The notes under the pieces were generated by a model. It saw only the letters and a program-made list of their open reading frames with translations. It made no database searches and had not been told where the DNA came from. This document shows, in pieces, positions 91 to 9,849 of a stretch of DNA of 9,849 nt. The translations under genes and the position numbers were made by a program. Each line of letters begins with the position of its first letter. Within the stretch, counting starts at the first letter, position 1. The stretch comes from Sporomusaceae bacterium (lineage in GTDB: Bacteria; Bacillota_C; Negativicutes; Sporomusales_B; UBA7701), in assembly GCA_022839045.1 (NCBI GenBank), contig JALHDI010000102.1:1-9849 (forward strand), in the 5' to 3' direction.

Positions 91-822
91 ATGCTGAAGA
101 TATTGCAGAAGATAATGGCTGTGGGCACGGTGACGGAGGCGTGGGACGCCGGCCAGACGCCGGAGCGCTTCCGCGGCCGGGTGGAGGCGGCGGGCGGGTC
201 GTGCGCCGCCTGCGGGGCGTGCATCGCCGCCTGCCCGGTCGGGGCGATCGAGGCTGACGGCGATTCGATAAAGGTGAATCAGCGGGCGTGCATTTTCTGC
301 GGCCGCTGCGTGGAGCGGTGCGAACGGGGGCTGCTGACCCAAACGGGCGACTATAAGCTGGCCGAGCTGGGCGGGCAGCTGCTGGGCGAGGCGGTGCGGA
401 CGGAGATCGTCCGGACGCTGGGCCGGTCGCTGCATGTCCGCCACCTGGACGTGGGGTCGTGCAACGCGTGCGATTTCGAGCTGAACCAGCTCTTAGGCCC
501 GGTATACGATCTGCAGCAGTACGGGGTGGATTTCGTGGCGTCGCCGCGTCACGCCGACCTACTGATGGTGACGGGTGTGGTGACGCGCAACCTGACCCAG
601 GCGCTGCTGATGACGTATGAGGCGACGCCGGCGCCGCGGCTGGTGATGGCGGTGGGGGCATGCGCGGCGTCGGGCCGGACGTTCGGCGCGAAGAATTACG
701 CGGTGCGGGGCGGGGCGGACGCGCTGGTGCCGGTGGACGTGTACGTGCCGGGCTGCCCGCCTAGACCGCAGGCGCTGCTGTACGGAATCCTGCTGGCGCT
801 GGGGAGAATCGAAAAGGCATAG
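91..822 (+). CDS. Ferredoxin-fused [NiFe]-hydrogenase small subunit (HycG/NuoB 20-kDa family)
   Basis: This 243-aa protein should carry electrons between a ferredoxin-type module and the active site of a membrane-associated group 4 hydrogenase. Residues about 35-85 hold two [4Fe-4S] motifs: C38, C41, C44, C48 and C67, C70, C73, C77, each CxxCxxCxxxC. Residues about 115-240 form the NuoB/HycG domain, with proximal-cluster cysteines C124 and C127 (Gly-Ser-Cys-Asn-Ala-Cys), C191 (Gly-Ala-Cys) and C222 (Pro-Gly-Cys-Pro-Pro-Arg-Pro). The CxxC spacing is that of hydrogenases rather than the adjacent Cys-Cys of complex I NuoB. The residue after the CxxC is Asp, where HycG-type proteins have Glu. In HycF/HycG or EchF/EchC systems the ferredoxin and 20-kDa domains are separate proteins; here they are fused. 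A GGGGGA ribosome binding site starts at the upstream stop codon, 7 nt before this ATG, so the two genes are coupled. It is the last gene of its operon. Confidence 0.9.
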   Translation: MLKILQKIMAVGTVTEAWDAGQTPERFRGRVEAAGGSCAACGACIAACPVGAIEADGDSIKVNQRACIFCGRCVERCERGLLTQTGDYKLAELGGQLLGEAVRTEIVRTLGRSLHVRHLDVGSCNACDFELNQLLGPVYDLQQYGVDFVASPRHADLLMVTGVVTRNLTQALLMTYEATPAPRLVMAVGACAASGRTFGAKNYAVRGGADALVPVDVYVPGCPPRPQALLYGILLALGRIEKA

Positions 823-1010: not shown

Positions 1011-1994
1011 TCAAGGGCGCAGGACGACTTTGACGGCGGCGTCGTCTTTGTCCACGAATTCGAACGCTTTGTCGATGGCGTCGAGGGGAAATTGGTGGGT
1101 TATGAGGGATTTGACGTCGATCAGCCACTGGACGACCGGCCTGAGGGCCTGTGGGGTCCATACCTGCCGTTCCTGGCGGGTATGATGGACGAGGCAGGTG
1201 TTCCTGAATTCGATGCCGTCGTCGTGCCAACGGCTGATGTCGAGCCGGACGGGGCGCGTGATCCAGCTGTACCATACGAAGATGCCGTTGTGTTTCAGGA
1301 GGGCGGTGGCCGCGTTGATCGACTGTTCGCTGCCGGCCGCTTCGACGACGACATCGGCCCCGATGCCGCCGGTGATGTCGAGGACGGCCTGGACGGGATC
1401 GGCGGCGGTGGCGTTGATGACGATGTCGGCGCCGAGTTTCTTGGCGAGCTGGAGCTTGCCGTCGAGGACGTCGATGACGATGACTTTGGCGGCGCCTTTC
1501 TGTTTGGCGCACTGGGCGATGATCTGCCCGGCGAAGCCGCCGCCCATGACGGCGACGGTGTCGCCGAGCTGGACGCCGGAGTGGAGCCCGGAGAACATGG
1601 CGCAGGCGACAGGTTCGCCGAGGGAGGCGATGTCCATGTCAAGCCCTGCGGGAACGGGTTCGAGTTCAAACACTTTCGCTTTGAAGTAGGCGGCGAAGTT
1701 GTTGTTCCAGCCGAAGGCCATGACTTTGTCGCCGGGCTTGAATTCCCTGACTTGGCGGCCGACTTCGACGACTTCGCCGCCGCTTTCGTGGCCGAGATAG
1801 AAGGGGAATTGGGGCTCCTGGCGGAACTCGGCCGTCTTGGGCGGCAGTTGGCCGCGGTAGAAGGATTTGTCGGAGCCGCAGATGCCCATGAGGTGGTTTT
1901 TGACGATCACTTCGTCGTCGCCGCATTCGAGCTGCCGGTCGACGAGGCCGATGGCGTATTCCCTGGTTAGCAGGGCCGCTTTGGTGGCTTGCAT
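1011..1994 (-). CDS. Medium-chain zinc-dependent alcohol/polyol dehydrogenase
   Basis: This 327-aa cytoplasmic protein belongs to the MDR superfamily (threonine/sorbitol dehydrogenase-like) and should oxidise a secondary alcohol or hydroxy-acid carbon with NAD(P). The GroES-like domain spans about residues 5-120 with probable catalytic zinc ligands C39 (Gly-Ile-Cys-Gly-Ser-Asp), H69-E70 (Gly-His-Glu) and E127 (Gly-Glu-Pro). The Rossmann fold starts at the Gly-Gly-Gly-Phe-Ala-Gly loop (151-156). An Asp at about 175, at the end of the second strand, favours NAD over NADP. The four-cysteine structural zinc lobe typical of many family members is missing: the stretch around 90-110 has no cysteines. 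The start has a GGGAGG site 8 nt upstream in the 15-bp gap after tctA. As last gene of the transporter operon it probably acts on the imported compound or a product of it. The substrate is unknown. Confidence 0.88.
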   Translation of the reverse strand: MQATKAALLTREYAIGLVDRQLECGDDEVIVKNHLMGICGSDKSFYRGQLPPKTAEFRQEPQFPFYLGHESGGEVVEVGRQVREFKPGDKVMAFGWNNNFAAYFKAKVFELEPVPAGLDMDIASLGEPVACAMFSGLHSGVQLGDTVAVMGGGFAGQIIAQCAKQKGAAKVIVIDVLDGKLQLAKKLGADIVINATAADPVQAVLDITGGIGADVVVEAAGSEQSINAATALLKHNGIFVWYSWITRPVRLDISRWHDDGIEFRNTCLVHHTRQERQVWTPQALRPVVQWLIDVKSLITHQFPLDAIDKAFEFVDKDDAAVKVVLRP

Positions 1995-2009: not shown

Positions 2010-3509
2010 CTATGCGCCGGTGGACGCAGCGTTCGCTTTCCGCTTTTTGTAGAAGTTGATCGCAATCGGGGCGATGAAGGACAGGCACGATACGCCGAGC
2101 AGCACGGCGGCGATGGGGCTGTTGAAGAAGATGGCGTAGTCGCCCTGCGACATGATGAGCGAGCGCCGGAATTCCTGCTCCGCGAGCCCGCCGAGGACGA
2201 TGCCCAGGATGATGGGCGAGAGGGGGAACCCGTATTTTTCGAGCACGTAGCCGAGTACGCCGAAGCCGAGCGTCAGCCAGACATCCATCATGTTGTTGCG
2301 GATGGCGTACGAGCCGACGATGCAGAGGACGAGGATGACGGGCCCCAGCACGGGGTAGGGGATGCGGATGATGTTGGCGAAGCCCCTGATGAAGATGGGG
2401 GCTACGAGCAGGATGATCGCGTTGGCGATCATCCTGCCGAGGAAGATTGTGTTGATGAATTCGGCTTGTTCGGTGAACAGCAGCGGCCCCGGTTTGAGGC
2501 CGTGGAGGATGAACGCCCCCAGCATTACCGCCGTGGTCGCGCTGCCCGGTATCCCCAGCGCGAGCAGGGGAACCATGGCGCCGTTGGCGGCGGCGTTGTT
2601 GGAGGATTCGGGCGCGGCGATGCCTTCCGGATGTCCGGTGCCGAATTTCTCGGGCGTTTTGGACCAGCGGACGGCTTCGCTGTAGCTGACCATGGCGGCG
2701 GTGGTGGCGCCGATGCCCGGGAGGATGCCGATTACCGTCCCGAGGGCCGAGCCGCCGAATATCGTCGGCATGAGCCGTTTCTGCAGGGTGAAGCTGGGCA
2801 GCGATGTCCTGATTTTTCCCAGCTTGACTTTGACGGTGGTGTCTTCCATGACCTGGCGGAGGATTTCCGATATGGCGAACAGGCCGATGAGCACGGGGAT
2901 GAAGTCGATGCCGCTCATCAGGCTGGGCAGCCCGAAGGTGAAGCGGGGGATGCCCGCCATGGGGTCGATGCCGACGGTCGCCAGAAATAGGCCGAGCAAA
3001 GCAGCGAGGAAGGCTTTCACCATGTTTTTCGCCCCCAGGGTGGTCACCACGCTGAGGCCCATGATGGCCATGCCGAAGTATTCCGGCGGGCCGAAGGCCA
3101 GGGCGATTTTGGCCAGTTGGGGAGCCACGAGGATGAGAGCCGCGCCGCCGAGCAGCCCGCCGACCGCCGAGGAGTAGACGGAAATCCCCAGAGCTTCGTG
3201 GGGTTTGCCCTGTTTGGTCAGCTCGTAGCCGTCGAGGGTGGTGGCCACCGCCTCGGGGGCGCCGGGGGTGCGGAAGAGGATGGCGCTGATGGAACCGGAG
3301 AATACGGACGAACAGTAGACGGAGATGAGGAGCAGGAAGGCGGTGTCGGGCTCGAGGGTGTAGGTGAGCGGGATGAGGAGCACGACCATCATCGTGCCGC
3401 TCACCCCCGGCGTGGCGCCGCTGAGCATGCCCAGCAGGGCGCCGCCGAAGACGGCGATGAGGTTCGAGGGTTGTATGATGTGGAGCAGGGCTGCCAGAAA
3501 GCTGTCCAT
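2010..3509 (-). CDS. tctA: Tripartite tricarboxylate transporter, large permease subunit TctA
   Basis: This 499-aa polytopic membrane protein is the transport channel of a TTT importer, which is generally regarded as ion-gradient driven and takes substrate from the TctC binding protein. It matches the TctA family in length and in two sets of conserved motifs. The first is a Gly-rich segment at 22-35 (Gly-Ala-Thr-Pro-Gly) followed by a Thr-Pro-Gly-Ala-Pro motif at 81-85. The second is the equivalent segment at 253-267 (Leu-Pro-Gly-Ile-Gly), then Glu-Gly-Ile-Ala-Ala-Pro-Glu (295-301), Asn-Asn-Ala and Gly-Ile-Pro-Gly (319-322). The two sets are the visible sign of the family's internal duplication. 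The rest is mostly hydrophobic helices, with a basic C-terminal tail. The AGGAGG site overlaps the tctB stop codon, giving a 12-bp gap and likely translational coupling. The substrate is not readable; citrate, other carboxylates and aromatic acids are all known for the family. Confidence 0.95.
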   Translation of the reverse strand: MDSFLAALLHIIQPSNLIAVFGGALLGMLSGATPGVSGTMMVVLLIPLTYTLEPDTAFLLLISVYCSSVFSGSISAILFRTPGAPEAVATTLDGYELTKQGKPHEALGISVYSSAVGGLLGGAALILVAPQLAKIALAFGPPEYFGMAIMGLSVVTTLGAKNMVKAFLAALLGLFLATVGIDPMAGIPRFTFGLPSLMSGIDFIPVLIGLFAISEILRQVMEDTTVKVKLGKIRTSLPSFTLQKRLMPTIFGGSALGTVIGILPGIGATTAAMVSYSEAVRWSKTPEKFGTGHPEGIAAPESSNNAAANGAMVPLLALGIPGSATTAVMLGAFILHGLKPGPLLFTEQAEFINTIFLGRMIANAIILLVAPIFIRGFANIIRIPYPVLGPVILVLCIVGSYAIRNNMMDVWLTLGFGVLGYVLEKYGFPLSPIILGIVLGGLAEQEFRRSLIMSQGDYAIFFNSPIAAVLLGVSCLSFIAPIAINFYKKRKANAASTGA

Positions 3510-3521
3510 TCCCCAGGCCTC

Positions 3522-4007
3522 CTAATAGAAAAATAGGCTTATCATCCTGAAGACGCCTACGCCCCTAGGCATGGGAACAGCCATGATTTTGGGGAAAAGC
3601 GCTACGAAGAGGATGGTAGCCCCGGTCGCTGTCAGCAGCAGGTTTTTCACGGACCTGACGCCCAGAACGGACATGATGGCCAGACAGAACAGCAGGGTGC
3701 CGACCGCAAAGCCGAGAAAGGGCATGACGAGGGTGTAGGCGACAGCGAGGGCGAGCGTGTACCAGAAGCGAAGCGGGTAGGGCTTTTTTTCTTCCTCCGC
3801 GGCGACCAGAGCCTTGCGACGCTGATATATGTCGACGAGGAGCGCCGCGGACAGGACGACCATGCCGGCGAGCAGCAGCTGCGGCCAGTATTCGGGGCCG
3901 ATATCGCTTATCCGCGTTTTGGGGAAGAAGAAGGTCTGGTAGTAAAGGACGCAGGAGGAGATGAGGAATACTGCGGCGATCAAGGATTCGGTCAGCAACA
4001 CCGACAT
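3522..4007 (-). CDS. tctB: Tripartite tricarboxylate transporter, small membrane subunit TctB
   Basis: This 161-aa membrane protein is the poorly conserved small subunit of the TTT importer. It has a hydrophobic segment at about 7-26, a Gly-Pro-Glu-Tyr-Trp-Pro motif (37-42) leading into a second helix (about 43-60), a charged cytoplasmic-type linker (62-80), and helices at about 82-98, 99-116 and 121-139. It ends with a Pro-Met-Pro-Arg-Gly motif (145-149) like the Pro-x-Pro-Arg-Gly seen near the C-terminus of many TctB proteins. Size, helix pattern and position just upstream of tctA make the call firm even though the sequence family is loose. The start has AAGGAGG 7 nt upstream of ATG. The gap to tctC contains a strong hairpin, described separately. 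Confidence 0.9.
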   Translation of the reverse strand: MSVLLTESLIAAVFLISSCVLYYQTFFFPKTRISDIGPEYWPQLLLAGMVVLSAALLVDIYQRRKALVAAEEEKKPYPLRFWYTLALAVAYTLVMPFLGFAVGTLLFCLAIMSVLGVRSVKNLLLTATGATILFVALFPKIMAVPMPRGVGVFRMISLFFY

Positions 4008-4087: not shown

Positions 4088-5080
4088 CTATTTGATGTAG
4101 CCGAGTTTGGTGAGGGCTTTTTTGTAGACGTCGATGTCTTTCTGGATGGCGGCGCCGTAGTCTTTGCCGTTCAGGTAGCCGGGCCTGAGGTCAAGGTAGG
4201 TGTCTTTCTCCACTTTTTTGTAGGAGGGAGTGTCCTTGGCTTTGGTGAAGGTTTCTTCGAGTTTTTTCACGACGGCCGGGTCGGTGCCTTTTTTGACCAT
4301 TACGCCGCGCCAGTTGCCGAGGGTGATATTCCAGCCCTTGTCGGGCGCGACCGGCAGGTTGGGGAATTTTTCAAGCTTTTTCTCGCTGAAGGCCAGTACG
4401 GGAACGAGGCTGCCGTCGGCTACCCGGCCGGCGACCGGGCCGAGCTCCTCGAACATGACGTCGAGGTGTCCGCCGAGCAGGGCGGCCTGCATCTGTCCGC
4501 CGTTCTCGTAGGGCACGTAGTTGACTTTAATGCCGGCGGCGTCTTCCCAGAGGGCGATTACGACTTCGTCGAAGCTGGCGGCACCGGTGCCGCCGACTTT
4601 GAGTTTGCCGGGGTTGGCTTTGGCGTAGGCGACGATGTCGTCGACGGTTTTGAACTTGCTGGTTTTGGTGACTTGCAGCATGGCGGTGTCATGCTGGATG
4701 CGGGCTACCGGGATGTATTGGTCGAGGTTGTGGGGGGTGCGTCCCAGGGCGACGTTGACGGCGTAGTTGGAGCCCATGAACCAGAGGGTGTAGCCGTCGG
4801 CCGGCTGCTGGGTGACATAGTCGCCGGCGATGGCCCCGGACGAGCCGGGCATGTTTTTGACGGCAATCGGTTGGCCGAGTATTTCGCCGGCGGGTTTAGC
4901 GATGGCCCGCGCGAATACGTCGGTGCCGCCGCCCGCACCCCAGCCGACGATCCCTTCGATCGGCCGTTCGGGATATTTGGCTTTTCCGTCGGTGGCGGAA
5001 CCGCCGCCGCAGCCGCCGAGCACGAGGACGGCGACGAGCAGCAGGGCACAAATCAGGCTTGTTCTCGATTTGGTTGTCAT
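4088..5080 (-). CDS. tctC: Tripartite tricarboxylate transporter substrate-binding lipoprotein TctC
   Basis: This 330-aa extracytoplasmic solute-binding protein (TctC/Bug family) captures the substrate and delivers it to TctAB. It opens with Lys/Arg, a hydrophobic stretch (9-21) and a lipobox Leu-Gly-Gly-Cys with C24 as the likely lipidated residue, then a Gly/Ser linker. The mature part begins with Tyr-Pro-Glu-Arg-Pro (36-40) and the ligand-loop motif Gly-Ala-Gly-Gly-Gly-Thr-Asp (48-54). It goes on to Asn-Met-Pro-Gly-Ser-Ser-Gly-Ala (76-83), Ala-Asp-Gly-Tyr (94-97) and Ala-Leu-Leu-Gly-Gly-His-Leu-Asp (200-207), all typical of the family. I chose the second ATG of an ATGATG pair because it lies 6 nt from GGAGGG; the first is only 3 nt away. 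The frame stays open 29 more codons upstream, but that extension overlaps the previous gene and lacks signal-peptide character. The asparagine, glutamate and aromatic residues of the pocket cannot be assigned to a ligand by eye. Confidence 0.94.
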   Translation of the reverse strand: MTTKSRTSLICALLLVAVLVLGGCGGGSATDGKAKYPERPIEGIVGWGAGGGTDVFARAIAKPAGEILGQPIAVKNMPGSSGAIAGDYVTQQPADGYTLWFMGSNYAVNVALGRTPHNLDQYIPVARIQHDTAMLQVTKTSKFKTVDDIVAYAKANPGKLKVGGTGAASFDEVVIALWEDAAGIKVNYVPYENGGQMQAALLGGHLDVMFEELGPVAGRVADGSLVPVLAFSEKKLEKFPNLPVAPDKGWNITLGNWRGVMVKKGTDPAVVKKLEETFTKAKDTPSYKKVEKDTYLDLRPGYLNGKDYGAAIQKDIDVYKKALTKLGYIK

Positions 5081-5106
5081 CATTATCCCTCCAGTCTTTT
5101 TGCCTG

Positions 5107-5727
5107 TCAGCCAGCCATGAGCTTCAGCAGCGCGGCCGCCCTGACGGGGTTGACTATACCGCAGTGGCACTGGGAGGCAAGTTCGTCGGCCGCTTGTTCG
5201 GGGGTTTTCCTGCCGGCTTTGATTTCATCGACCATGTGGTTGATGAGGTTGAAGGCGACCATGCCGTGGCCGCACATGGTGCTTATTTCGAGCACCTGGC
5301 CTTTCGGCAGGCGTTTGGTATTTCCGTGGATGCCGAGGGAGTGTTCGATGGTATGCCGCTCGATGCCGGCTTTGCCACAGCAGGCGTCGACATGGTCGAG
5401 GAGGCCGGAGACGACGATGGACAGCCCCAGGTCGGCATCCTTCAGTTCTTTGAGGACTTTGGCGACGACTTCTTTGTCGGTATAGACGGCGTGGACGATG
5501 GAGTTGTCCTGATGCCCGTTGGCGATGGCCTCGAGGCCCACGGCCAGGATGTTGCCGGTTTTCATGTCGCCGCTGAATACCGGGTTGTATTTGTTGACTA
5601 TTTTGTAGAACTCGCCGAAAACCGGGGCTTTGCCTTTGGCGTTGACGGTCTGGGCGGCGATCGCGAATACGACGTAGTCTTCCTGCAGGTTTTCCTGCGT
5701 GCCGTGGCGGTGCAGCGAATGCGTCAT
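5107..5727 (-). CDS. Cys/His-rich protein of unknown function, coupled to a ferredoxin fusion
   Basis: I do not recognise the family. The protein has 206 aa, no signal peptide and no membrane helix, so it should be cytoplasmic. It is rich in potential metal ligands in its second half: H112, the adjacent pair C116-C117, H125, H129, H134, a Met-Cys-Gly-His-Gly motif (C152, H154), H164, and Cys-His-Cys near the end (C187, H188, C189). Three more histidines sit in the first eight residues. None of these is a standard CxxCxxCxxxC ferredoxin motif, so a mononuclear or unusual cluster site, or a catalytic cysteine, is possible. Its GAAGGAGG site lies within the last codons of the upstream ferredoxin-fusion gene, with a 4-bp gap, so the two are translationally coupled and probably act together. 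tctC follows after 26 bp. The operon context suggests a part in handling the imported substrate. Confidence 0.85.
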   Translation of the reverse strand: MTHSLHRHGTQENLQEDYVVFAIAAQTVNAKGKAPVFGEFYKIVNKYNPVFSGDMKTGNILAVGLEAIANGHQDNSIVHAVYTDKEVVAKVLKELKDADLGLSIVVSGLLDHVDACCGKAGIERHTIEHSLGIHGNTKRLPKGQVLEISTMCGHGMVAFNLINHMVDEIKAGRKTPEQAADELASQCHCGIVNPVRAAALLKLMAG

Positions 5728-5731
5728 TTAT

Positions 5732-6457
5732 TTATGCCTCCTTCGCCAGCGGTCTTCCCAGACCGACGTTTGTTTTTCCGTTGAGCGACGGTTCGAAGCC
5801 GACTGTGCGCGCGATTTCCGCGGTGGGCACGGTGTTGTCTGCGGACATGCGGCTGGCAAGGTCAAGGCTGAAGACGGTGTCCAGCTTGGGGGCGACCTGC
5901 TTGATCGCGGTCAGGGTGGTCGCCAGTTTTTCGATGGCGACGTCGAATTCGACGATGGCTGACAGCACTTTTTCGCCGAGTATTCCGTCCTGCATTTTGC
6001 CGGTGGCGGTGTCGACCATCAGCGCGGTGACGGGGTTTTGCGGTTCAAAGACTACGCCGATGGGGGCGACCGCCATGGCGACTTTTTCGACGTCGCGGAA
6101 TCTGGTGCCCGTACCCGGCCTGCCGAGTTCGACGGCAACGCCGGCGTGCCCGCGCTTGAAGCGGCCGGTGACGTCGTTGGTTTTCATTTCTTCGGTGCCG
6201 CGCCCGGGAACAGAGGTGGTCTTGTGGGGAACGAGCGGGTTGGAGAAGGTCCGGCGGAGGTTGCGCATTTCGTCCAGTTCTTGTTGCTGAAGGGCGCCGG
6301 TGGGACATACTTTCGGCCTTTGGCATATGCCGCATTCGACGCATTCGTCGAGGTCGATCGTGCATTTCCCTTCGCTTTCCCGGTAAGCGATGCACCCCAT
6401 CGGGCAGTAGGGCTGGCACAGTTGACAGCCGATACAGGTCTCCTTGTCAATAATCAT
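5732..6457 (-). CDS. 2x[4Fe-4S] ferredoxin fused to an unrecognised C-terminal domain
   Basis: This 241-aa cytoplasmic protein is the first gene of the transporter operon. Residues 1-55 are a ferredoxin domain with C8, C11, C14, C18 (CxxCxxCxxxC followed by Pro) and C39, C42, C45, C51 (CxxCxxC then five residues to Cys-Pro). The last spacing is longer than the usual three. Two extra cysteines, C22 and C32, lie between the motifs. After a linker (about 60-95) comes a domain of about 145 aa without cysteines. It holds a Gly-rich stretch with Gly-His-Ala-Gly (103-106) and Gly-Arg-Pro-Gly-Thr-Gly (112-117), then alternating strand/helix-like segments. I do not recognise this domain. The ferredoxin part implies electron transfer, perhaps to a reductase formed with the adjacent 206-aa protein, but no catalytic motif shows. 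AAAGGAG lies 8 nt before the ATG. Confidence 0.88.
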   Translation of the reverse strand: MIIDKETCIGCQLCQPYCPMGCIAYRESEGKCTIDLDECVECGICQRPKVCPTGALQQQELDEMRNLRRTFSNPLVPHKTTSVPGRGTEEMKTNDVTGRFKRGHAGVAVELGRPGTGTRFRDVEKVAMAVAPIGVVFEPQNPVTALMVDTATGKMQDGILGEKVLSAIVEFDVAIEKLATTLTAIKQVAPKLDTVFSLDLASRMSADNTVPTAEIARTVGFEPSLNGKTNVGLGRPLAKEA

Positions 6458-6545
6458 AGGCTGTTCTCCTTTCGTTTTGGGCGTGGTTGCTTATGCCGTT
6501 TCTCCGCCTGTGACTTTCGCCGCGCGTTAAGGAGACGCCTATTTT

Positions 6546-6585
6546 ATTGCTTAAGTGCGGCTGATAATTGTCTTAATTGCTTTTA
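6546..6585. promoter_or_regulatory. Candidate operator: three ATTGYYTT-like repeats
   Basis: Three similar words lie in the AT-rich part of the divergent region: ATTGCTTAA (6546-6554), ATTGTCTTAA (6567-6576) and ATTGCTTTTA (6576-6585). They start 21 and 9 bp apart, so the outer two are 30 bp apart, and they overlap the weak leftward promoter. The middle copy lies beside a near-palindrome, GATAATTGTC (6563-6572). CitB/DcuR-type regulators bind AT-rich sites near their target promoters, so these are plausible regulator sites. The match is by eye only, and chance repeats are possible in AT-rich DNA. Confidence 0.35.
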
Positions 6586-6643
6586 TTTTTCGTTTATTTC
6601 ATTTATTTACAGCCCGTTTAGTGTTTTTATTTCGCGGCATCCG

Positions 6644-6652
6644 TGTTAAAAT
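6644..6652 (+). promoter_or_regulatory. Candidate extended -10 promoter for the two-component genes
   Basis: TG-T-TAAAAT fits an extended -10 element (TGn followed by a 5/6 match to TATAAT). The -35 region at the proper distance is poor (TTTTTA at 6624-6629), which is common for extended -10 promoters. It would start transcription near 6659, about 55 nt before the kinase start codon. Confidence 0.4.
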
Positions 6653-6714
6653 TTTGGTGATAAAGAAACCCTGGCTAAGGGGGGGGCGGTAGTATAAATT
6701 TCTCCGAGTCTTCC

Positions 6715-8292
6715 TTGCAGAAAAAGGTTTTTTTGTTGAATCTGCTCAGCGGCATGATAGTGTTGGCAATCATCATTTCGCTGTTTTATCTGTCGCTTGT
6801 CGATAATACCGAGAAGCAAATAGCCATCCAGGCGCGGAGCGTCGCTAATCTGGCGGCCGCGCGGGTGGATGTCGTCCAGGCTTATCTGACCAATGACCCG
6901 CCGAAGAATCTGGGCGGGATAGCGTACGAGGTCGAAAGAAAAACGAACGCCGCTTTTGTCGTGTTTCTGGACAAGAACGGCATCCGTTACACCCATCCGA
7001 ACCCGGAGCTGATCGGCAAGCCTTTTACTGGCAACGACGAGCTGCCGGCGTTGCGTGAGGGCAGGTCGTACATTTCGAAGGCGGTCGGCATTTCCGGCCC
7101 GTCGATCCGCGCCTTCGCTCCGGTGTTCGATTATACCGGCAACCAACTGGGCGCGGTGGCGGTGGGCTTCTGGGAACCCGATATCGCCAATATCATCTGG
7201 GGCGTTTTCCGTATCTTGTATATCATCATCCCGGTCAGCCTCGTTTCGGTCGCGCTGTTTTCTTTTCTGCTGGCCGGCAATGTGAAAAGGACGCTGTTCG
7301 GCATGGAGCCGGCGGAAATCGCCACGCAGCTCAAGGAACGGGAGACGATGCTGGAATCCGTCCGGGAGGGTATCATCGCGATCGACGCCGATTGCAAGGT
7401 GACGGTAGCCAACAGCGCCGCCCGCAGAATCCTGGCGCCGGAAGAAAATATCCTCGGCAACGATGTGGCTAAGTTGATCCCCAATACCAGGCTGCCGATC
7501 GTGATGGCGAACAAGACGGCCGAGCTGGACGAGCCGATGCTCCTGAACGGCCACGTGGTGCTGGTGAACCGCATCCCGCTTATGGTCGGCAACAGCGCGG
7601 TGGGCGCGATCTCGACTTTCCGCGATATGACGGAAATCAATAATCTGGCCGAAGAGCTGACGGGAGCGAGGCAGCTTGTGGATTCGCTGCGGGCGCGAAG
7701 CCATGAGTTCATGAACAAGCTGCAGGCCGTTTCGGGCCTTATCCAGCTCGGTTCGTACGCGGAGGCCCGCAAGTATATAACCAGGCTGACGGCGAAGGAG
7801 CAGTCGTTTATCGAGTTTTTGCTGAAGAATATCGCCAATCCGGCGGCCGCCGGGCTGTTGGAGGGCAAGTCGGCCGAGGCGCAGGAGCGGGGGATTGCGT
7901 TGTCGATCGACCCGAGCAGCAGGCTCTCCGTTCTGCCGCCTTATTTCGACGAGAACGCGCTGATCATCGTGCTGGGCAACCTGATCGAGAACGCGATGGA
8001 CGCCGTCCAGGACCTCCCCCCGGGAAGAAGGAGGGTGAGCGTGCTGGTAGCGCAGGACGACGACGGGATATTCATCAGGGTTGTCGATAACGGCTGCGGT
8101 GTCCCGGGTCATCTGCTGACCCAGATTTTCGAGAAGGGTTTTTCGACCAAGGAGCTGGGGCGGGGGTACGGGCTGGCGAATGTCAAAGCCAGGGTGGAGC
8201 TGGCGTCCGGTTCGATCGATGTAAAAAGCGATGCTTCGGGAACGGAGGTATCGGTCAGGATACCGGTCGGGCCGGCCTGTTCGCAGGAATAG
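6715..8292 (+). CDS. CitA/DcuS-type membrane sensor histidine kinase
   Basis: This 525-aa inner-membrane kinase senses an external ligand, probably a di- or tricarboxylate, and phosphorylates the adjacent regulator. Order of parts: TM helix (about 8-28); extracytoplasmic PDC/Cache domain (about 30-160) with Arg-Tyr-Thr-His-Pro-Asn-Pro at 91-97, a motif typical of citrate and C4-dicarboxylate sensors; TM helix (about 165-187); PAS domain (about 210-305); SpoB-type dimerisation segment with phospho-acceptor H330 (Ser-His-Glu-Phe-Met-Asn-Lys-Leu); HATPase with N box (N422, N426), Asp-Asn-Gly (458-460), a Phe-Ser-Thr-Lys stretch (476-479) and Gly-Arg-Gly-Tyr-Gly-Leu (482-487). The start is doubtful: TTG is the first usual start codon in frame after the stop at 6676, but it lacks a good ribosome binding site. 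An AAGGGGGGGG run lies 28 nt or more upstream. Ligand identity is inferred from family, not seen. Confidence 0.93.
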   Translation: MQKKVFLLNLLSGMIVLAIIISLFYLSLVDNTEKQIAIQARSVANLAAARVDVVQAYLTNDPPKNLGGIAYEVERKTNAAFVVFLDKNGIRYTHPNPELIGKPFTGNDELPALREGRSYISKAVGISGPSIRAFAPVFDYTGNQLGAVAVGFWEPDIANIIWGVFRILYIIIPVSLVSVALFSFLLAGNVKRTLFGMEPAEIATQLKERETMLESVREGIIAIDADCKVTVANSAARRILAPEENILGNDVAKLIPNTRLPIVMANKTAELDEPMLLNGHVVLVNRIPLMVGNSAVGAISTFRDMTEINNLAEELTGARQLVDSLRARSHEFMNKLQAVSGLIQLGSYAEARKYITRLTAKEQSFIEFLLKNIANPAAAGLLEGKSAEAQERGIALSIDPSSRLSVLPPYFDENALIIVLGNLIENAMDAVQDLPPGRRRVSVLVAQDDDGIFIRVVDNGCGVPGHLLTQIFEKGFSTKELGRGYGLANVKARVELASGSIDVKSDASGTEVSVRIPVGPACSQE

Positions 8293-8319
8293 ACGTTGAT
8301 GCTATTGCGGGGTGACAAG

Positions 8320-9057
8320 ATGCCTTTTTCGGTGCTGATTGTGGAAGACGACCCGATGGTATCGGATATTCTTCGGCGGGTTATCGAACGGATGAGCGGT
8401 TTTAAGGTGGCAGGTATAAGCGCTACGGAAAACGACGCGCTCAACAGCATCGCCAGGTTATCGCCCGATTTGATCCTTCTGGATATTTATCTGCCGACCG
8501 GCAACGGGCTGAATATTCTCAAGCATGTCCGGCACAAGGAGCTGGCGACCGATGTCATCCTTGTCACCGCCGCCAAGGATGTGCAGACGATTTATGCGAC
8601 GCTGCGGTTCGGTGCGATTGATTATATCATCAAGCCTTTCGATCTGGATCGTCTCAAGGCCGCGCTGAAGAATTACGCCCGGATGCGCAAGGTGTTCCAC
8701 AAGAAGGAGGAGATCCGCCAGGACGATCTCGATAAGATCGCCAAGCGGGCCGACGCGGACGCCGAGGAGGCGAAGGAGCCCCTCCAGGAGGATTTGCCTA
8801 AGGGGGTGCATCAGCTGACGCTGGAGCAGTTGCTGACGATCCTCCTGCGGGAGAAGAAGCCGATGACTTGTCAGGAGATCGCGACGGTGATGGCGATGTC
8901 GAAAATTACCGTTTGGCGCTATCTGGAGTATCTCGTGGAGACGAAGAAGATCAAGTATTCGTTGTTGTACGGCGGTACCGGCAGGCCTTCGAAGCTGTAT
9001 TTATCGAGGGCTGAGACGCCGGGACGCGAACGGGCAATTTTTAGGCCTCCGGGATGA
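8320..9057 (+). CDS. CitB/DcuR-type response regulator
   Basis: This 245-aa DNA-binding protein is the partner of the kinase 27 bp upstream and probably activates the divergent transporter operon. The receiver domain (1-120) has the acidic pair D10-D11, phospho-acceptor D55 (Leu-Leu-Asp-Ile), T83 and K105 (Lys-Pro-Phe). A charged linker (about 130-165) leads to a winged-helix-like output domain (about 168-235). That domain has the Gln-Glu-Ile-Ala helix, Thr-Val-Trp-Arg-Tyr-Leu recognition helix and a Gly-Arg-Pro-x-x-x-Tyr ending typical of the CitB family. I start at ATG 8320 because GGGGTGA lies 4 nt upstream. The frame also has TTG 8296 and ATG 8299, which would add up to eight residues before the receiver fold. 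The last codons and the stop lie inside the terminator hairpin, so the tail after the Leu-Tyr-Leu end of the fold is partly encoded by the hairpin arm. Confidence 0.93.
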   Translation: MPFSVLIVEDDPMVSDILRRVIERMSGFKVAGISATENDALNSIARLSPDLILLDIYLPTGNGLNILKHVRHKELATDVILVTAAKDVQTIYATLRFGAIDYIIKPFDLDRLKAALKNYARMRKVFHKKEEIRQDDLDKIAKRADADAEEAKEPLQEDLPKGVHQLTLEQLLTILLREKKPMTCQEIATVMAMSKITVWRYLEYLVETKKIKYSLLYGGTGRPSKLYLSRAETPGRERAIFRPPG

Positions 9058-9122: not shown

Positions 9123-9849
9123 TTATTCGCGCTCCAGCAGTTTGGGGACGCGCGGCGCACGGAGCTGGGACGGCGAGGGCAGGCCGGAGCCCATGAGGGG
9201 CCGGACGTAGAATTTGAAGGCGTCGGTGATGTGGTTGCCCTCGGCGTTGATGAATTCGTCGGGCATGGTGCGGGTTTTGCCGGCGACGTCGATAAGGGGC
9301 TGGAGGCGGTAGTCGACCGAGTAGTAGCCGGTGCGACGGATGGCGATCGAGCCGTCGACGTTGTTCCAGACGGCCATCTGCACCGCCCGTTCGCCTACTT
9401 CGCGGGCCTCGTGCTGGTCGACGTCGGAGACGCAGCCGAGGAAGGAGCGCTGGAGGTAGCCGAAGGTGTCGCTGCGGACGCGGGAGATGCCGAGCTTGTC
9501 TTTGATCAACTGGCTCAAGAGGTCGCCGACGACCCAGCTGCCGGAGAGGGAGACGTTGCCGTGGGCGTCGACTTCGGTGTCTTTGCGGAGGGAGACGACG
9601 ATGGGGTCGCCGGAACGGTCGCAGATGCCTTCGGAGAGGGCGACGACGCACATGCGGTGGCGGTCGTAGGTCTTTTTGACGGCGGCGAGGAATTCGTCGA
9701 CGTCGAAGACGCGCTCGGGCAGGTAGATGAGGTGGGGGCCGTCTTCGGGGTATTTCTGGGCGATGGCGGAGGAGGCGGCGAGGAAGCCGGCGTGCCGCCC
9801 CATGACGATGCCGAGGTAGACGCCCGGCAGGGCGCGGACGTCGAGGTTG
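9123..9849 (-). CDS. 6-phosphofructokinase, C-terminal two thirds (PPi-type features)
   Basis: The gene enters from the right edge, so its N-terminus is missing; 241 codons are visible. The enzyme phosphorylates fructose 6-phosphate to fructose 1,6-bisphosphate in glycolysis. Met-Gly-Arg-His-Ala-Gly (codons at 9803-9786) is the sugar-phosphate-binding MGR motif. It is followed by Tyr-Leu-Pro-Glu, Ser-Glu-Gly-Ile, and Gly-Tyr-Leu-Gln-Arg-Ser in place of the His-x-Gln-Arg seen in classical ATP-PfkA. Tyr-x-Gln-Arg is more common in the PPi-dependent and mixed-substrate groups. The residues that decide between ATP and PPi (near the N-terminal phosphate-donor loops) lie outside the window, so the donor is unresolved. 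The first ATG visible in this frame (9801-9803) is internal, not the start, because the frame stays open and conserved to the edge. It is convergent with the response-regulator gene and seems unrelated to the transporter operon. Confidence 0.88.
   Translation of the reverse strand, partial: NLDVRALPGVYLGIVMGRHAGFLAASSAIAQKYPEDGPHLIYLPERVFDVDEFLAAVKKTYDRHRMCVVALSEGICDRSGDPIVVSLRKDTEVDAHGNVSLSGSWVVGDLLSQLIKDKLGISRVRSDTFGYLQRSFLGCVSDVDQHEAREVGERAVQMAVWNNVDGSIAIRRTGYYSVDYRLQPLIDVAGKTRTMPDEFINAEGNHITDAFKFYVRPLMGSGLPSPSQLRAPRVPKLLERE

Follow-up and report, generated by a model that had tools for sequence, protein, structure and literature searches.

A near-obligate gene pair encoding a ferredoxin-fused protein and a Cys/His-conserved partner, a candidate oxidoreductase of carboxylate transporter operons

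What might two adjacent genes of no recognised family do at the head of a transporter operon? The question is raised by a 9,849-nt stretch of Sporomusaceae bacterium DNA (contig JALHDI010000102.1, assembly GCA_022839045.1), hereafter the window. In it, the genes of two proteins, designated A and B, lie 4 nt apart ahead of tctC-tctB-tctA, which encode a tripartite tricarboxylate transporter (TTT), and of a dehydrogenase gene, with a two-component system on the opposite strand. This layout was confirmed exactly as given in an original prediction made from the sequence. The reading that we tentatively favour is that the pair (AB) is an Fe-S oxidoreductase of two subunits, linked to ferredoxin and acting on small hydroxy- or oxo-carboxylates; B would be catalytic and A would transfer electrons.

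Pairing and conservation of proteins A and B

To assess how regularly A and B occur together, two taxon samples were searched, a class sample of 200 genomes and a phylum sample of 148. In the class sample, B was found in 17 genomes (E ≤ 1e-3) and A in 16 (E ≤ 1e-20), all of them among those 17; in the phylum sample, the same 18 genomes carried both B (E ≤ 1e-15) and A (E ≤ 1e-20). Two sets of loci were then compared. The first held 93 B open reading frames (ORFs) in 80 loci (79 from a genome collection plus the window) and, being composed of the best matches to the window B, is biased to its kind; the second comprised 59 regions from the two taxon samples and is free of that bias. In the first set, A was located directly 5' of B on the same strand for 85 of the 93 B ORFs, or 87 after start-codon correction in L014 and L078, where A abuts the true start of B. 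The others were B genes following another B in tandem (L051, L056 and the second B of L064), B genes lying where the contig start truncates the locus (one in L071 and the first B of L064), and a single true exception, L076, with A about 6 kb off on the opposite strand. In the second set, A adjoined 65 of 66 called B; the two were also adjacent in L158, whose B was not among the labelled ORFs, and a 3.4-kb contig (L107, G111:C79) carried B, tctC and tctB and no A. Natural fusions occurred in both orders, A-B (P0244) and B-A (P0251), with one member sequence each. The A-B pairing is close to obligate, as had been predicted, and AB loci are spread over ten phyla. Three further long proteins, in which B is joined to a shortened A (P0070), a TRAP binding protein (P0085) or a membrane protein (P0241), may be assembly joins. 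Several AB pairs were clustered at L029, L051, L054, L056, L064, L120, L132, L161 and L162, with B next to B in L051, L056 and L064.

The N-terminal part of A carries the two motifs of a 2[4Fe-4S] ferredoxin, C8-C11-C14-C18 and C39-C42-C45-C51. The second motif was kept in 78 of 78 A relatives and the first in 72 or 73, five of the remainder being gaps. The following ~180 residues, which include basic residues and a strongly conserved GRGTEEMKTND stretch, scored above the cut-off of no family in Pfam and NCBIfam searches; the predicted structure of A had a pLDDT of 90. For B, no Pfam match exceeded its gathering score (only Astacin appeared, at E 0.33), and neither NCBIfam nor a phmmer search of PDB sequences gave a match at E ≤ 1. 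The earlier statement that the pair belongs to no recognised family therefore stands, in these libraries, for B and for the second part of A. At E ≤ 1e-3, 1367 homologues of B were obtained among 1974 candidates and 6767 of A among 7089, the latter possibly including matches to the ferredoxin part only.

Seven residues of B (R7, C152, H154, C187, C189, N193 and R196) were the same in all 84 relatives aligned. The peptide word TMCGHGM, which contains C152 and H154, was one of the two patterns used to find L001-L079, and 74 of the 84 alignment rows hold it; conservation of these two residues in the first set is thus partly by choice, and a recount was therefore made on 64 B sequences found by profile, in which all seven residues were again identical (64/64). 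With many homologues and invariant residues in B, A and B are genuine genes and not chance ORFs. The original prediction had also proposed a low-potential or metal-cofactor step, which can reasonably be deduced from the ferredoxin of A and the invariant Cys and His of B; the reactions that it named (anaerobic reduction, dehydration or ring chemistry) found no direct evidence.

In another reading, which we judge improbable, AB would act in maturation, redox sensing or regulation, and B would be similar to PII-like proteins in its N-terminal half. Residues 12-110 of B may have a PII-like/ferredoxin-like fold, for which no structure match clearly above background was established. A second fold search, in which the second part of A was examined within full-length A, listed no clear match for it or for B, although a match is still possible. 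Furthermore, a weak profile similarity was seen between residues 137-222 of A and 45-124 of B (NPV ... D-TG ... SIV; hhalign P 0.064, probability 0.9%). It could hint at an old duplication, and a single duplicated domain making up B as well as the second half of A was not accepted on these scores.

Gene neighbourhoods of the pair

Neighbours were counted over 8 kb either way at 94 non-redundant loci flanked on both sides by 4 kb or more, derived from 153 B rows (142 after removal of near-identical ones, 94 with flanks). Labels are BLAST matches to cluster members, the cluster representatives being named via Pfam or NCBIfam. TTT genes were found near 34 of the 94 loci, leaving 60 with none within 8 kb, and a protein resembling carbon monoxide dehydrogenase (CODH) near 31. 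Six dehydrogenase types were represented, with at least one of them near 43 loci; in raw counts these were zinc-dependent alcohol dehydrogenase (Zn-ADH) 18, PdxA 10, Ldh_2 6 and HIBADH 6, the rest being short-chain dehydrogenases (SDR) or GlcD. DcuSR occurred at 18 loci, GntR at 17, PrpR at 15, aldehyde ferredoxin oxidoreductase (AFOR) at 13 and TRAP transporters at 11; glycerate kinase, FdrA/AllG and LarA were rare, at 4 loci each. In the second set, TTT genes were present in 25 of the 59 regions, CODH-like genes in 18 and both in 7.

The TTT association was compared with chance. The 35 AB genomes of the two samples held 223 TctA matches in 141 Mb, of which the 59 regions, in which AB loci from G002 and G004 are not included, cover 0.727 Mb, so that 1.15 TctA matches would be expected there; 23 were seen. 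The Poisson probability of 3e-22 is rough, as the genes cluster and many of the genomes are drafts. The predicted link to the transporter thus held as a strong enrichment and failed as a constant one. On a tree of B, a minimum of 16 changes was counted for the TTT state and of 10 for the CODH-like state (a quick tree, in which support was weak for 37 of the 139 inner branches), indicating that both links were gained or lost repeatedly.

AB was also located beside CODH-like/CooF/FNOR genes, AFOR, FdrA-AllG-hydantoinase, a thiamine diphosphate (TPP) enzyme with CoA-transferases, and LarA/GlcD/GlcF, among others. Partners as varied as these would suit a module without catalysis of its own, serving in electron transfer or as an adaptor and connecting ferredoxin with the various local dehydrogenases (Zn-ADH, PdxA, AFOR, GlcD/F, CODH-like/FNOR). 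The ferredoxin domain of A fits such a role, as do the FNOR and CooF-like ferredoxin genes, each near 34 of the 94 loci, and two proteins in which B is fused to a CooF-like four-cluster ferredoxin (P0242 and P0243, one member sequence each). Nevertheless, we consider it unlikely. One draft genome, G233, has 8 B copies on seven contigs with differing neighbours (L111, L126, L127, L128, L131, L132 and L135), which favours substrate-specific enzymes over one shared electron carrier, and the invariant Arg and Asn of B, together with its Cys and His, resemble a substrate or metal site.

Some individual loci showed further arrangements. In L109 (4628-10748) and L112 (2688-10491), AB lies beside a TPP enzyme of the oxalyl-CoA decarboxylase/2-hydroxyacyl-CoA lyase superfamily and formyl-CoA-transferase-like CoA-transferases, with an AFOR-like gene also in L112. 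Oxalate metabolism was not adopted as an explanation, since the L109 TPP enzyme fell below every listed cut-off (acetolactate synthase was best at 307 of 587 bits; oxalyl-CoA decarboxylase reached 210 of 557) and the two CoA-transferases scanned from this context were below all cut-offs among their best 25 families. L004 combines genes for an Asp-glyoxylate aminotransferase-like protein, a GntG-like aldolase, Ldh_2, an aconitase-like protein and GntP (named via a cluster mate in L042). A ketol-acid reductoisomerase gene directly follows the TTT genes of the AB operon in L003 (14181-15179), and an ORF of the same cluster occurs in L030. In L019 (Gemmatimonadota, 3-12705), AB is flanked by large ORFs (450-1336 aa) that are related to one another, an arrangement unique among the mapped loci.

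Hydantoinase-type amidohydrolases at some AB loci recall the 6-hydroxynicotinate reductase (Hnr) of Eubacterium barkeri, a ferredoxin-dependent Fe-S enzyme encoded near an amidohydrolase. A split Hnr is unsupported rather than refuted as an identity for A plus B: a search for long proteins that include B gave 14, of which none was named 6-hydroxynicotinate reductase. FdrA and AllG were found near AB in L007, L008, L038 and L048, and L008 carries FdrA-AllG-AllH together with a hydantoinase, which resembles the oxamate carbamoyltransferase reported from E. coli as three genes, allFGH (in the available part of PMC11326118); the resemblance is limited by the rarity of the association. Plasmid searches with B and with A gave no match. 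In the open-access literature, no paper recognisably concerned with the AB pair was found, a weak negative because that literature is not searchable by sequence and most subscription papers are missing from it.

The CODH-like partner

The CODH-like neighbours, 391-573 aa in length apart from the contig-cut L143, are of CODH descent, a profile of 18 of them matching CODH-II chains at E ~1e-95. In the aligned profile, all six positions that we take to be the C-cluster ligands of CODH-II (H261, C295, C333, C446, C476 and C526) were replaced, and so were the two presumed D-cluster Cys (C39 and C47); the protein of L037 (7859-9229) showed the same replacements at these positions. The four B-cluster Cys were kept in 36 of 36 CODH-like proteins (18 in L023-L075, including that of L037, and 18 in L110-L160), and no other Cys or His reached 50%. 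CO chemistry by a mini-CODH was set aside, because the neighbour has no C-cluster ligands.

Gene order recalls that of Ni-CODH operons in that a CODH-fold protein, a CooF-like ferredoxin and FNOR recur at AB loci, the first usually in company of the other two, and FNOR and CooF have been reported as CODH neighbours in the accessible portions of PMC8776680 and PMC6344411. The mini-CooS of Thermosinus is a different protein from the AB-linked one, since the portion of PMC8776680 available reports its motif as complete, whereas the AB-linked protein has no conserved C- or D-cluster ligands.

The short CODH-like form was closely tied to AB. Among the matches listed for the 348 genomes, the class sample gave 8 full-span, single-frame matches of 450-620 aa and the phylum sample 10 (one of the latter, G264:C328, is listed there with its first part alone and is 489 aa), and all 18 were within ~6 kb of AB; a contig-cut match in G041 was also beside AB. 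The 620-aa limit was chosen after looking, and the next longer frames, from 627 aa, were taken as ordinary CODH on length alone. Among the same matches, none of those covering only the second half (450-560 aa; e.g., G099:C34, G139:C37, G148:C183, G112 and G063), those split between frames (G256:C356 and G180:C5) or fragments (G300:C105, G273:C3 and G315:C159) was beside AB. The window has no CODH-like gene. Its near relative G095 gave two CODH-like matches (best E 1.7e-21), the one listed being 716 aa.

The window operon and a possible reaction

In the window, A, B, tctC, tctB, tctA and Zn-ADH form a six-gene leftward run in this 5' to 3' order, with intergenic gaps of 4, 23, 80, 12 and 15 nt (Table 1). 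A purine-rich ribosome site precedes each gene, that of B (GAAGGAGG) being within the 3' end of A. TctA, TctB and TctC all scored above the Pfam gathering scores in one gene run, identifying a TTT transporter. The kinase scored 460 bits against the NCBIfam DcuS/MalK family (cut-off 520) and the regulator 165 bits against DcuR (cut-off 262), so both are called DcuSR-like here. Relatives of the window Zn-ADH at 51-88% identity were present in 13 other AB loci, two more ORFs at 26% being left uncounted. A scan of positions 6400-6800 returned no sigma-70-like site, and the window yielded neither a tRNA nor a tmRNA, nor any Rfam family at gathering score. The arrangement is that of a TTT operon in having tctC-tctB-tctA with a two-component system opposite, and differs in being headed by AB and closed by Zn-ADH. 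The closest named relative is Anaeroselena agilis, whose A is 96% identical (P0122); in genome G095, B is 95% identical and the gene order is the same (L146), with TctC unlabelled there.

Table 1 Genes and other features of the 9,849-nt window
Feature	Position	Strand	Remarks
Ferredoxin domain fused to NuoB/hydrogenase-small-subunit-like protein	91-822	+	convergent with the AB operon
Zn-dependent medium-chain dehydrogenase (Zn-ADH)	1011..1994	-	final gene of the operon
tctA, TTT large membrane subunit	2010..3509	-	Pfam TctA, 512 bits
tctB, TTT small membrane subunit	3522..4007	-	Pfam TctB
tctC, TTT solute-binding lipoprotein	4088..5083	-	Pfam TctC; lipobox LVLGGC; ATG at 5083
Protein B	5107..5727	-	206 aa; uncharacterised; alpha-beta half, helical C-terminal half
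Protein A	5732..6457	-	241 aa; N-terminal 2[4Fe-4S] ferredoxin (residues 1-55) and uncharacterised domain
Divergent intergenic region, A to kinase gene	6458..6714	.	no sigma-70-like site (simple scan)
DcuS/MalK-like sensor kinase	6715..8292	+	divergent from A
DcuR-like response regulator	8296..9057	+	divergent from A
Diphosphate-dependent phosphofructokinase-like protein, C-terminal part	9123-9848	-	cut by the window edge

A redox enzyme for small hydroxy- or oxo-carboxylates is suggested by the ferredoxin of A, by the presence of redox partners as well as a transporter and a sensor for carboxylates, and by the recurrence of hydroxyacid- or alcohol-type dehydrogenases. From the observed gene order, pairing, conserved residues, neighbours and TctA enrichment, we infer a complex with catalytic activity, a metal site, a substrate class, and a reaction and its direction, along the following lines. 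A and B would form one enzyme. A would be its electron-transfer subunit, exchanging electrons between its two [4Fe-4S] clusters and the ferredoxin pool and docking B through its second domain. B would be the catalytic subunit, oxidising or reducing a small hydroxy- or oxo-carboxylate; its putative metal or Fe-S site would be formed by C152, H154, C187 and C189 and possibly also by H125 and H6. In the window operon, the TTT transporter would import the substrate when the DcuSR-like system senses carboxylate, and Zn-ADH may catalyse an adjacent step coupled to NAD(P). In about one third of the relatives, electrons may also pass through the CooF-like ferredoxin, the one-[4Fe-4S] CODH-derived protein and FNOR, tying the reaction to NAD(P)H.

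Hydroxyacid operons often need a dehydratase, and none was seen among the ten window proteins scanned with Pfam, which would be accounted for if AB were itself a non-redox Fe-S lyase or dehydratase, similar to the aconitase type, with structural or regulatory clusters in A. The retention of both ferredoxin motifs in nearly all A relatives and the recurrence of redox partners argue against this, and we regard it as improbable.

Several results weigh against a hydroxy- or oxo-carboxylate oxidoreductase. LarA, glycerate kinase and FdrA/AllG contexts were each absent from the second set (0/59), and the 35 AB genomes contained 15 glycerate kinase genes, not one of which was near AB; a glycerate-producing pathway, suggested by the first-set link, was rejected on this ground. 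The TRAP component DctM was seen twice in the second set against 2.37 expected (from at least 460 matches in the genomes), and TRAP transporters were accordingly dropped as a general partner despite their presence at 11 of 94 loci; the same result means that the choice of regions alone does not produce the TctA enrichment. Foldseek searches with the predicted structures gave no match at E ≤ 1e-3 for B, nor for A. H6, H125 and S130 of B, invariant in the 84 aligned relatives, were replaced in 2, 2 and 3 of the 64 profile-found B, respectively. The neighbours are highly varied, which makes a single substrate class a broad reading.

A bolder version of the oxidoreductase proposal, which we hold to be somewhat unlikely, would make AB the first representative of a novel class of ferredoxin-driven metalloenzymes in anaerobes, with C152, H154, C187 and C189 of B as the site of low-potential chemistry on hydroxycarboxylates. 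One third of the operons would then have recruited a nickel-stripped CODH scaffold as a one-cluster relay or substrate-holding subunit.

AB is carried by roughly one in ten genomes of the two sampled groups (17/200 and 18/148), and the libraries searched assign no function to it. The CODH-like partner without a C-cluster would represent a nickel-enzyme scaffold reused for another job. If AB is indeed a hydroxycarboxylate oxidoreductase, it would account for a so far unassigned step in the anaerobic breakdown of acids, and many TTT transporters would gain a candidate substrate class.
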